40,808 bases of DNA, from NCBI GenBank assembly GCA_024641545.1, contig JAHECW010000030.1, forward strand, positions 1-40,808, written 5' to 3'. Made by a program: the position numbers and the translations under genes. This DNA is from Acidobacteriota bacterium. Lineage in GTDB: Bacteria; Acidobacteriota; Thermoanaerobaculia; Thermoanaerobaculales; Sulfomarinibacteraceae. The notes beneath the pieces were generated by a model. The model had not been told where the DNA came from and ran no database searches. It saw only the letters and a program-made list of their open reading frames with translations. This document shows, piece by piece, positions 23,039 to 26,931 of the stretch. Positions within the stretch are counted from its first letter, which is position 1; every line of letters starts with the position of its first letter.

Positions 23039-24493
23039 TTACTCGGTTGTGAGGGCGGTTTCCACCTGCGCGAGGACGAACTCCCACGCCTTGTCGAAGT
23101 ACGACATGGTCTCGTCCCAGCTCGGGCCTTCGCCGAAGCCGAGATGGGTGAGCCGGACGCGGGTGTGGTCGTCGTCCAGCGCCTCGGTCTCGACCACCAC
23201 CCAGGTGCGGGCGAGGCGGCTGTCGGGCTGCGATGGCGGGGCGTTCCACGAGAAGCTGATCATCCGGCCGGGGATGTAGCTCAGGATCTGGCTGCCGTTG
23301 CCGCCGATGGCCCCGTCGAAGAGCCACTCGTAGCGGCCTCCGACGGCGAGATCGATGCGGCTCGCGGCGGGGGGTGGAAAGACGGCGGTCCACCCCTCGT
23401 CGCTGGCCCAGGCGGACCAGACCCGGTCCGCCGACGCGGGGATGACGCGTTCTTTGGTGAACGATCGCAGATCGGCGCCCGCCGCGGCGAACCGGTCCGG
23501 GTCGATGGGCGCCGTCGCGTCGCCGGGTCGTCCGCCCTGGCGCCACCACGTGCCGTCCATGAGCTCGGTCCAGGTCGACCCGGGGTTGTCGCGAACCCGC
23601 ACCCGCCAGCGGAAGGAGGTCGCCGATAGCATCTCGGCCGTCTGCTCGAGTCGGCCGCCGGACGGCGTCGGCCGCTCGATGGTCAGGACGCCGTCGGCGT
23701 CGCTGCTCACGGTGGACGTGGAGACCGACCCGTCTTCGCCGAAGGTCACCAGCGTCGGGCGGCCCTTTGTGCCGGCCGCACCGACAACCACGAGAATCGA
23801 GCGCCGAGCGCCCATGCCGGCCGGTTCGAGGACCCAGGAGTCGGCGTCGACGAATCGGCCCGCGAGACCGGCCCGGAGCTCAATCCGCGACCAGGTCGGC
23901 GAACCGTCGCCGCGCACGGCGCCGGTTTCCCAGCCGCCGAGCCAGGGCTCGAGGACGGCGACGCCGGCATCGAGCTCCTCAACCAGGGGAAGAACGACGG
24001 GATCGGCGGCGACCTTCTTCCAGACACCGTCCATGATGAGGTTCCGGCCGCCGCCGGCCGCGATCGCCCAGACCTGCCAGCGCATCGCATCCGCCGACTC
24101 GAGCTCCATCCGCTCGGCGATGGTCACCTCGCCCGCGGGCCACTCGCCGGTGATCACCGGGCCATCCACCTCGAGCCGGCTTTCGGCGTAGGAGCCGTCG
24201 GCGCTGAAGGTGTGGGCGGCGACCTCGCCGGCCTCGTTCGAGCCGACGAACAGGGTCCGGTAGCGCTGATAGAGCGGCCCGTCTCCGTCCCGAACGAAGA
24301 CCCTGCCCTCGACAAACGAGCCGCCGAGCACCGGACGGTACTCCGCCTGCGCCCACAACGCGGTGCCGTCGGACCAGACGGCATCGATCCGCCAGCTGCC
24401 GATGAGATTGTCGACGGGAGTGTCGGCGCGGCCGGTCGCGGCGAATACGGTGGCCAGGGCGAAGAACACGCAGACGTCCTTGATTCGAGTCAT
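23039..24493 (-). CDS. Exported protein with C-terminal SRPBCC (AHSA1-like) domain
   Basis: The protein is 484 aa from ATG 24493 behind GAGGAGAG. The signal peptide is VCVFFALATVFAATGRAD. Residues about 25-175 and 185-325 read as two copies of a lipocalin-like DUF1579-type domain, with repeated pieces such as LIGSWRIDAVWSDGTALWAQAEYRPVLGGSFVEGRVFV and WLGGWETGAVRGDGSPTWSRIELRAGLAGRFVDADSWV. Residues about 345-484 form an SRPBCC/AHSA1 domain: TKERVIPASADRVWSAWASDEGWTAVFPPPAASRIDLAVGGRYEWLF, later RVRLTHLGFGEGPSWDETMSYFDKAWEFVL. SRPBCC proteins bind hydrophobic ligands and are usually cytoplasmic, so export is unusual. The ligand is unknown. Confidence 0.82.
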   Translation of the reverse strand: MTRIKDVCVFFALATVFAATGRADTPVDNLIGSWRIDAVWSDGTALWAQAEYRPVLGGSFVEGRVFVRDGDGPLYQRYRTLFVGSNEAGEVAAHTFSADGSYAESRLEVDGPVITGEWPAGEVTIAERMELESADAMRWQVWAIAAGGGRNLIMDGVWKKVAADPVVLPLVEELDAGVAVLEPWLGGWETGAVRGDGSPTWSRIELRAGLAGRFVDADSWVLEPAGMGARRSILVVVGAAGTKGRPTLVTFGEDGSVSTSTVSSDADGVLTIERPTPSGGRLEQTAEMLSATSFRWRVRVRDNPGSTWTELMDGTWWRQGGRPGDATAPIDPDRFAAAGADLRSFTKERVIPASADRVWSAWASDEGWTAVFPPPAASRIDLAVGGRYEWLFDGAIGGNGSQILSYIPGRMISFSWNAPPSQPDSRLARTWVVVETEALDDDHTRVRLTHLGFGEGPSWDETMSYFDKAWEFVLAQVETALTTE

Positions 24494-24787
24494 CGGGCTC
24501 TCCTCGGTCGCTTCGGAATCGAACGTTCCGCCAATATCGAGCGACGGGTCCTCAGTGTCAAGGTCGGGTTCGGCCTCGTCGCGGACGACATCGACGGCAT
24601 GGACCGCAGCGGCGTGCGCTCCGTCACCCTCATCGGCGGCCACGGCCGGCGCGGGCCTGTTTCGATCGGCGGCCGCAGGCCCCGTCGACGGTTTGCGTGG
24701 TACGATTGAGGGTATGCCGCTCTGGCGAAGACTCGTCCTCCTCGAGGGGGTCCGCGGGTGGGGTTCTCCCCGCCCGGGAGGGGTCCG

Positions 24788-25849
24788 ATGAGCGCGCAAC
24801 GGCGGCTCAGGCGCCGGCTTTTCGAGGGGATCGCCGAGGAGAACCTCGAGCTCATCCACAACCAGCCGAGGGGGACGATCCGGCGCAAGCGGCTGGCGAG
24901 GCTCGAACGACTCAAGCGGCTTCGGCGCGCGCTGCTGGCGGGCGGATCGCTGGTTCTCGTAGCCGGGGTCGTGCTGACCCTCGGCCTTCGCACCGATGCG
25001 AGGGCGGACCGAAGCGAGCCGTTGCCGGTCGCCGCGGCGGTCGAGATGGCAGTGGATGCGCCACCCGTGACGCGGTCGGCGGATCCGTCCACGAGCCTGA
25101 GCGATGTCATCACCGGCCAGCAGATGCAGCCCATCGAGCGCGGCGTGATCCCGCTCGCGGTCAGAACCATCGTGGTCGATCCCGGTCACGGCGGGAAGGA
25201 CAGCGGCACCCTCCTGCCCCAGTTCGGGATCCTGGAAAAAGAGATCACGTGGGACATTGCGAAGCGCCTCAGCGACCTGCTCGGCAACGAGTTTACGGTG
25301 ATCATGACCAGGAGCGGCGATGAGACCGTCGCCCTCAAGGACCGCACCGAGATCGCCAACAACGCCAACGCCGATCTCTTCGTCTCCATCCATGTGAACT
25401 GGCTCCCGGATCGCGAAGCGCGGGGTTTCGAGACCTATTTCGCCGGGGCGACCGTGGATCCGTTCCTCAAACAACTGGCCGCGGAGGAAAACCGCGATTC
25501 GGGTTTTTCCATGGCCGACACTCGCCGGCTGCTCGATGGAATCTACTCCGGGGTGCGGCTCGATGAGAGCCGGCGCGTGGCCGACTGGGTCAGCCAATCA
25601 CTCTTCGACACCCTGCGGATGAGAAATCCCGACGTCGTCGATCGTGGCGTGATGCGCGCCCCTTTCGTCGTCCTGGTGGCCACCGAGATGCCGGCGGTGC
25701 TGGCCGAGGTGGCGTGCATCTCCAACGACCGCGAAGCACGGATGCTCGGGTTCCCGTGGTACCGACAAAGCATTGCCCAGGCGCTGTACTCCGGCATCAA
25801 GGGGTATGCGCGTGAGTTGAATGAAACAGACAAGGGAGAATCTACATGA
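24788..25849 (+). CDS. Membrane-anchored N-acetylmuramoyl-L-alanine amidase (Amidase_3)
   Basis: The protein is 353 aa from ATG 24788 with GGGAGGGG five nt upstream. A basic N-terminal stretch (RRKRLARLERLKRLRRALL) precedes one membrane helix (AGGSLVLVAGVVLTLGL), a type II anchor that leaves the enzyme in the periplasm. The Amidase_3 zinc enzyme follows: IVVDPGHGGKDSG (His ligand), EKEITWDIAKRLSDLL (Glu ligand), SIHVNW (His ligand) and PAVLAEVACISND (catalytic Glu). It cleaves the bond between MurNAc and L-Ala in peptidoglycan. A regulatory helix block such as that of AmiC is not obvious. The stop overlaps the actin start (ATGA, 25846-25849). A 25-codon ORF (24714-24791) precedes and overlaps it. 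Confidence 0.92.
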   Translation: MSAQRRLRRRLFEGIAEENLELIHNQPRGTIRRKRLARLERLKRLRRALLAGGSLVLVAGVVLTLGLRTDARADRSEPLPVAAAVEMAVDAPPVTRSADPSTSLSDVITGQQMQPIERGVIPLAVRTIVVDPGHGGKDSGTLLPQFGILEKEITWDIAKRLSDLLGNEFTVIMTRSGDETVALKDRTEIANNANADLFVSIHVNWLPDREARGFETYFAGATVDPFLKQLAAEENRDSGFSMADTRRLLDGIYSGVRLDESRRVADWVSQSLFDTLRMRNPDVVDRGVMRAPFVVLVATEMPAVLAEVACISNDREARMLGFPWYRQSIAQALYSGIKGYARELNETDKGEST

Positions 25850-26877
25850 CCGAAAAAGCCCAACACCTTCTCGTCGGCATCGACCTCGGAACCTCGCAGA
25901 GCGCCATCGTGACTTCGGCGGGTGTTCGCAAGGTCGTCGACAGCTATGTCGGCTGGCCGGTGGATGCCGTCGCCCGCAAGATCCTCAAAAAGGAAGTGCT
26001 CTTCGGTCAGGATGCCGTCGAAAACCGGACCATGCTCGAGGTTCACCGCCCCCTCGAGCGGGGCCTGCTCAAGGAAGGTTCCGACAAGGACCAGCAGGCG
26101 ATCCGCGAGCTCCTGTCGCACCTGCTCGATCTCGCCGGCGTGCCCGAGGTGCGCAAGAGCGGAGGCAAGGTCCGGGCGGTGGTGGGCGTGCCTGCCGAGG
26201 CGCTCCGGGTGAACAAACAGCACGTCCGAAAGGCCATGCACGGGCTCGTCGACGGTCTGATCATCGTCTCGGAGCCGTTTGCGGTGGCCTACGGGTTGGA
26301 CGCGCTGCTCCACGCCATGGTCGTCGATGTCGGCGCCGGCACCACCGATTTCTGCGTCATGAAGGGCCGCTACCCCACCGAGGAGGACCAGCGCACCCTG
26401 ATCAACGCCGGCGATTGGGTCGACGACCAGCTCTTTACCCTGCTCGGCGAGCGCCACCCGGGGATGAGCGTGTCGATTCACACGGTCCGCGATTGGAAGG
26501 AAAAGCACAGTTTCATCGGCAAAGCGCCGGGGAAGGTGACGGTCTCCATCCCCATCGAGGGCAAGCCGTCGGAGATCGACATCACCGACGAGATCAAGCA
26601 GGCCTGCGAGAGCCTGGGACCGCCGGTTGCGGAAGCCATGCTCGATCTCATCGCCAGCGGCGAATCGGAGTACCAGGAGAAGGTCCGCCAGAACATCATC
26701 CTCGCCGGGGGCTGTTCGCGGATTCCGGGGTTCGGCCAGTACCTCGAGAAGGCCATGGACCCGTTCGGCGGCGGCAAGGTGCGGGTTGTCAAGGACCCGG
26801 TCTATGCCGGCGCCAACGGCGGCCTCGCGCTGGCGGAGGATGCGCCCAAGTCGGACTGGGAGAAGCTTCCGGATTAG
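25846..26877 (+). CDS. MamK-like bacterial actin
   Basis: The 343-aa protein starts at ATG 25846 behind AGGGAGA. It has the actin-fold ATPase motifs: VGIDLGTSQSAIV (phosphate 1), VVDVGAGTTDFCVM (phosphate 2) and IILAGGCSRIPGFGQYLEKAM (adenosine). The N-terminal stretch RKVVDSYVGWPVDAVARKILKKEVLFGQDAVENRTMLEVHRPLERGLLKEG resembles the MamK filament protein more than MreB: VGWP...ARKIL and the HRPLERG block are what I associate with MamK and its relatives in non-magnetotactic bacteria. It should form ATP-dependent filaments. No magnetosome genes are in the window. Coupling to a wall amidase suggests a role in septation or wall remodelling, which is inference. A strong terminator follows. Confidence 0.8.
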   Translation: MTEKAQHLLVGIDLGTSQSAIVTSAGVRKVVDSYVGWPVDAVARKILKKEVLFGQDAVENRTMLEVHRPLERGLLKEGSDKDQQAIRELLSHLLDLAGVPEVRKSGGKVRAVVGVPAEALRVNKQHVRKAMHGLVDGLIIVSEPFAVAYGLDALLHAMVVDVGAGTTDFCVMKGRYPTEEDQRTLINAGDWVDDQLFTLLGERHPGMSVSIHTVRDWKEKHSFIGKAPGKVTVSIPIEGKPSEIDITDEIKQACESLGPPVAEAMLDLIASGESEYQEKVRQNIILAGGCSRIPGFGQYLEKAMDPFGGGKVRVVKDPVYAGANGGLALAEDAPKSDWEKLPD

Positions 26878-26899
26878 TTTCGTCCTCATCCGACCCACA

Positions 26900-26931
26900 G
26901 CCACCGGCCCACGCATGGGCCGGTGGCTTTT
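26900..26931 (+). terminator. Rho-independent terminator
   Basis: GCCACCGGCCCA (26900-26911), loop CGCA, then TGGGCCGGTGGC (26916-26927) form a perfect 12-bp stem, followed by TTTT (26928-26931). It ends the amidase-actin operon. Confidence 0.9.

Follow-up and report, generated by a model that had tools for sequence, protein, structure and literature searches.

The window, by which we mean the whole stretch of 40,808 nucleotides that was analysed, encodes a cell-wall amidase and a MamK-family actin-like ATPase as a coupled two-gene operon, and this pair is a real module that recurs across the Acidobacteriota. We think it fairly probable that the module is a self-contained cytoskeletal system in which a MamK-family filament would bind the cytoplasmic tail of the amidase and thereby place peptidoglycan cleavage along its track. 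The component families are known, while their pairing and the tail motif described below appear to be new: within the partial coverage of the literature no paper was found that joined MamK with an N-acetylmuramoyl-L-alanine amidase or with Acidobacteriota, nor was a function found for MamK-like actins outside magnetotactic bacteria. Here such an actin is tied gene-to-gene to one enzyme with a known substrate across the membrane. Since the proposed contact is a peptide of about 20 residues, it can be tested quickly. If the reading is right, it would (i) add cytoskeleton-guided wall hydrolysis beside MreB and FtsZ/FtsA, (ii) provide a dedicated route by which an internal skeleton steers wall cutting outside, and (iii) supply a docking motif for finding the clients of other MamK-family actins, with MamK and viral members included.

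The features of the locus and of the viral contigs discussed below are collected in Table 1. The first-pass annotation of this DNA had reported the coordinates of the gene pair, their ATGA overlap and a strong terminator, all of which proved correct on re-examination. An AGGGAG sequence resembling a Shine-Dalgarno motif lies inside the amidase gene just 5' of the actin start, and the terminator consists of a 13-bp stem followed by TTTTC (fold energy -29.6 kcal/mol, z = -4.35). The amidase gene has an alternative start at GTG 24758, which would give 363 aa; the ATG start was preferred because many relatives have their Met 6-9 residues ahead of the tail motif. Ten neighbouring genes in the window were scanned, with matches to GGDEF, FG-GAP, AHSA1, protein kinase, DLH, NrfD, beta-helix, subtilase and glutamine cyclotransferase families and one gene without a match. 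No magnetosome genes were found among these ten, in line with the first-pass annotation, which had seen none in view. The Magnetochrome model (PF18509) matched none of 15 genomes, a count to be read with the controls, which likewise gave no match. On the minus strand an open reading frame of 852 aa with a TTG start (window positions 23039-25597) crosses the amidase gene; it probably prolongs, as a shadow frame, the AHSA1-domain gene lying within 23039-24505.

Table 1. Coordinates of the amidase-actin operon in the window and of the related genes on three viral contigs (L119, L120 and L126, each in its own numbering).
Feature	Position	Strand	Details
Amidase gene (Amidase_3)	24788..25849	+	353 aa; PF01520, 5e-46
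Tail motif, amidase residues 5-25	24800..24862	+	RRLRRRLFEGIAEENLELIHN; invariant Asn19; conserved, predicted cytoplasmic; proposed filament-docking peptide
Transmembrane helix, about residues 49-67	24932..24988	+	single; mean Kyte-Doolittle 2.31
Amidase_3 catalytic domain, residues 128-338	25169..25801	+	PF01520; AmiA/AmiC-type insertion
MamK-family actin-like ATPase gene	25846..26877	+	343 aa; NF040964 373.8 bits, 5ljw 270 bits, tree
ATGA shared by the amidase stop codon and the actin start codon	25846..25849	+	actin ATG 25846-25848, amidase TGA 25847-25849; translational coupling
Intrinsic terminator ending the two-gene operon	26899..26928	+	stem and fold energy
Viral MamK-family actins	L119 2998-4041; L120 2983-3990; L126 2989-3993		
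Small coiled-coil-like viral proteins near the actins	L119 2110-2595; L120 2676-2981; L126 920-1312		

The taxonomic distribution of the pair was determined in two genome samples. The MamK profile divided 297 sampled Acidobacteriota genomes into two score groups, namely 29 carriers of the actin at 346-415 bits and the rest at about 91 bits or less, and the amidase adjoined the actin in every carrier locus fetched. In a set of 80 closer relatives both genes were found side by side on the same contig in 53 genomes and neither gene in the remaining 27, so that the survey across Acidobacteriota proposed in the first-pass annotation found the pair strictly conserved. Both samples together hold 56 distinct carrier genomes, all with the amidase adjoining the actin, although in two of them (G303 and G333) the actin is adjoined by amidase fragments. 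The carrier genomes named here are assemblies from metagenomes. The linked amidase of one locus (L020, genome G237) is split into two reading frames, whether by an error in sequencing or because the copy is decaying. A generic, separate amidase was retained in almost all of the 80 genomes.

The carriers span several families and the surroundings of the pair are otherwise unrelated. Inspection of 25 loci, most of them with flanks of as much as about 10 kb in either direction, yielded no further broadly conserved neighbour, and we therefore regard the two genes as the unit. The genes overlap or are separated by at most 10 nt in 45/53 distinct loci (one of these a truncated-frame artefact), with an overlap of -4 in 14/53. 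Chance neighbours were ruled out by the strict adjacency in unrelated contexts, and the coupling of amidase and actin exceeds chance. As to scope, the survey covers Acidobacteriota, and the scan of genome contigs with a single protein retrieved five close Acidobacteriota relatives only; neither a plasmid collection nor the INPHARED phages gave a match to the actins searched.

The family membership of the actin was determined using NCBIfam models, solved structures and phylogenetic trees. Against the MamK model (NF040964) the window actin scored 373.8 bits (cut-off 400), against BeeR (NF053558) 218 bits (cut-off 530), against the MreB model 52 bits (cut-off 293) and against FtsA (TIGR01174) 13.3 bits (cut-off 175.85), in each case below the cut-off. 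MamK (5ljw) was the best of the solved relatives, with BeeR at 156 bits and MreB at 47 bits, and MamK was also the closest by fold to the modelled actin of a relative (L011), with 40% identity in the fold match. Three motifs of the nucleotide site, DLGTS, SEPF and DxGAGT, are conserved. The trees separated the actin from MreB with full support and grouped MamK with two Acidobacteriota actins (86/98), a placement in which the MamK branch is long and represented by one sequence; a clade of Acidobacteriota actins without MamK was not rejected in the same one-sequence setting (AU p 0.41). The second tree was built without FtsA, whose branch had proved saturated. Judged from profile scores and trees, the window actin is a member of the MamK family and an identity as MreB or FtsA is ruled out; the first-pass annotation had likewise called it MamK-like and not MreB, and the grouping with MreB or FtsA that it had named as evidence to the contrary did not occur. 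The genome encodes its own MreB-like protein (G000:C180) and its own FtsA (G000:C4, 306.6 bits) elsewhere. Two relatives that share the gene pair, from genomes G037 and G196, exceed the MamK cut-off, with 407.8 and 415.2 bits. The actins of two loci (L034 and L035) come from genomes outside the class to which the window belongs, pass the MamK cut-off and still have a linked amidase; they are possibly the nearest to the origin of MamK.

MamK (5ljw, 5jyg; NF040964), the closest family, polymerises and has a role apart from MreB and FtsA, and the window actin would be expected to polymerise in the cytoplasm; it differs from MamK in its score below the cut-off and in its partner, which is a wall amidase and not a set of magnetosome proteins. 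BeeR of Verrucomicrobiota (8r2n) is, like the window actin, MamK-related and from non-magnetotactic bacteria, and its function is unknown according to its authors, whose paper names neither an amidase nor a gene neighbour (PMC11929497). The window actin is set apart from BeeR by its score against that model and by beginning a few residues ahead of the fold, without the N-terminal extension of 30-50 aa.

For the amidase the PF01520 match reached 157 bits (cut-off 27), and an AMIN domain was not detected in the domain search. The scores against the NCBIfam AmiA/AmiB/AmiC equivalogs (96.7/92.9/94.2 bits) lie below the cut-offs of 400/532/700. An AlphaFold model of the amidase from the relative L011 was closest in fold to E. 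coli AmiA (8c2o, Z 30.1), with AmiC at Z 28.0, and this model shares with E. coli AmiA/AmiB/AmiC the catalytic fold and the insertion. AmiA and AmiC are exported to the periplasm, whereas the window amidase is predicted to be membrane-anchored with a conserved cytoplasmic tail. Its layout comprises 48 basic N-terminal residues (net charge +11), one membrane helix, a variable linker and the catalytic domain, and the predicted topology is that of a type II, bitopic inner-membrane protein with the N-terminus inside and the catalytic domain outside. The single hydrophobic N-terminal helix bears out the membrane anchoring that had been noted at first pass. An A-x-A sequence follows the helix in 5/30 amidases, the window's included, and cleavage by signal peptidase is possible in those five. 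The conserved tail is absent from the other amidase of the genome (473 aa, C126).

The residues H117, E132, H185 and E291 (L011 numbering), which we take to be the zinc ligands and the catalytic Glu, are invariant in 30 sequences, and the active site is intact by this measure. In the proposed module the periplasmic Amidase_3 domain would cut peptidoglycan where the filament holds the amidase, and the filament would set where, and perhaps when, the wall is trimmed; such trimming could serve division, cell separation, elongation or the anchoring of the filament. The same parts could be weighted differently, with the amidase acting mainly as an anchor: its wall-facing domain would grip peptidoglycan and its tail would fix a MamK-like filament that positions another cargo or organelle, cutting being secondary. 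MamK does position cargo along the cell in magnetotactic bacteria (PMC11929497), and conservation of the tail motif does not depend on that of the catalytic domain, but a pure anchor has no need of catalytic residues that stay invariant in 30 relatives, and no third gene of a cargo type is conserved near the pair; we consider the anchor role unlikely.

The part of the amidase that would meet a filament guiding cleavage is a predicted helical motif in the tail with the consensus [KR]xxhLxxAVx[ED]NLxhh, which was present in each full-length module amidase examined and reads RLRRRLFEGIAEENLELI in the window amidase. By mean pairwise similarity the motif (0.67) comes close to the catalytic domain (0.69), whereas the basic stretch that follows it (0.36), the membrane helix (0.40) and the linker (0.32) score much lower; by identity the motif, at 0.38, stays below the catalytic domain, at 0.53. 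In 27/27 non-redundant amidases the Asn of the motif was identical. A motif profile was searched against six carrier genomes, in five of which the module amidase was the sole match and in the sixth of which the same amidase was a marginal one (E 0.06). No other clients of the motif were found in these six genomes, and two non-carrier genomes gave no significant match. The cytoplasmic helix bearing this motif would dock on the filament. In AlphaFold models of a read-through amidase-actin fusion the confidence of the tail was 78/88/85, compared with 74/81/77 for the amidase alone, and this slight rise of 4-8 points is too small for proof of docking.

The long, poorly conserved linker bears on a further possibility, in which the actin polymer would regulate the amidase, its assembly toggling the activity across the membrane much as FtsEX acts on EnvC and the E. 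coli amidases. The AmiA/AmiC-type insertion of the catalytic domain, which in E. coli amidases holds an inhibitory helix, is in keeping with such control, but a linker of this kind fits tethering better than the transmission of a mechanical signal, and regulation is in our view quite improbable. The tail itself is basic and amphipathic and could simply rest on the membrane. If it were such a membrane-surface element, or an export signal of the degenerate Tat type, the two genes would be merely co-expressed without contact, an explanation to which we give little weight. E. coli AmiA and AmiC do carry Tat signals with an RR motif, but motif position 10 of the module amidases is K in 21/30 and R in 9/30 and position 11 is R, K, Q or S, and the hydrophobic core begins about 20-25 residues beyond the motif. 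With RR not invariant and the core not adjacent, a Tat signal was excluded; moreover, a signal function would leave unexplained the invariant Asn and the matching motif found near viral MamK-like actins. We read the motif as a docking element, which probably grips the filament, because a matching motif occurs in small viral proteins near MamK-family actins. The suggestion of the first-pass annotation that the amidase N-terminus touches the filament thus gains a conserved tail motif and a viral counterpart, while the contact itself is one that we infer.

Docking of a hydrolase by its tail has partial parallels in known systems. The bitopic proteins FtsN and PilN each attach to an actin-like partner, FtsA and PilM respectively, through a short cytoplasmic tail (PMC7613929); FtsA and PilM differ from the window actin in having a 1C subdomain and belonging to other families, and FtsN and PilN, unlike the amidase, are not hydrolases. 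In B. subtilis MreBH interacts with LytE and is needed for the lateral-wall distribution of LytE, so that an actin homologue can direct a cell-wall hydrolase, although that actin is an MreB paralogue, the autolysin is a different one, and the accessible part of the source describes neither a coupled two-gene operon nor a cytoplasmic tail (PMC3817527).

The viral counterpart was found in scans of IMG/VR, which yielded three contigs (50, 114 and 274 kb) that encode MamK-family actins. The MamK model gave 359 bits for the L119 actin and 381 bits for the L120 actin. Upstream of each actin lies a small protein, directly, one gene off or four genes off, and the C-termini of the three small proteins read KLELLKVVFEENKQLR, KLKVFERVLKENLDLR and KLAIFQALIEENLRIR. 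With a profile built from the amidases only, these proteins were the top ORFs of their own loci (scores 7.9-8.4), against a background in which 13/2725 ORFs reach 7, and they aligned best in exactly the C-terminal motif segment. The shuffle p for each was 0.004-0.008, values that are not independent because the three proteins are mutually related, so that they amount to one family-to-family match and not three; the match is short, and the protein four genes from its actin was picked because it has the motif. This match lends moderate backing to the docking-motif reading, and the small proteins are possible filament adaptors. PHROGs gave no match for the two small proteins tested.

More tentatively, and as a proposal that we rate as rather less than even, a dedicated two-gene system, distinct from both MreB and FtsZ, would steer a peptidoglycan hydrolase by a short docking motif, viral MamK-like actins with coiled-coil adaptors would use the same code, and magnetosome MamK would be one side branch of an older system in which filaments recognise their cargo by such motifs. 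As to the contigs themselves, the L119 actin had no match in the INPHARED phage collection and no terminase was found on the 114-kb contig in the test that detected terminase genes on the other two. One of these two also carries a major head protein, and one of the three viral actins adjoins a terminase gene.
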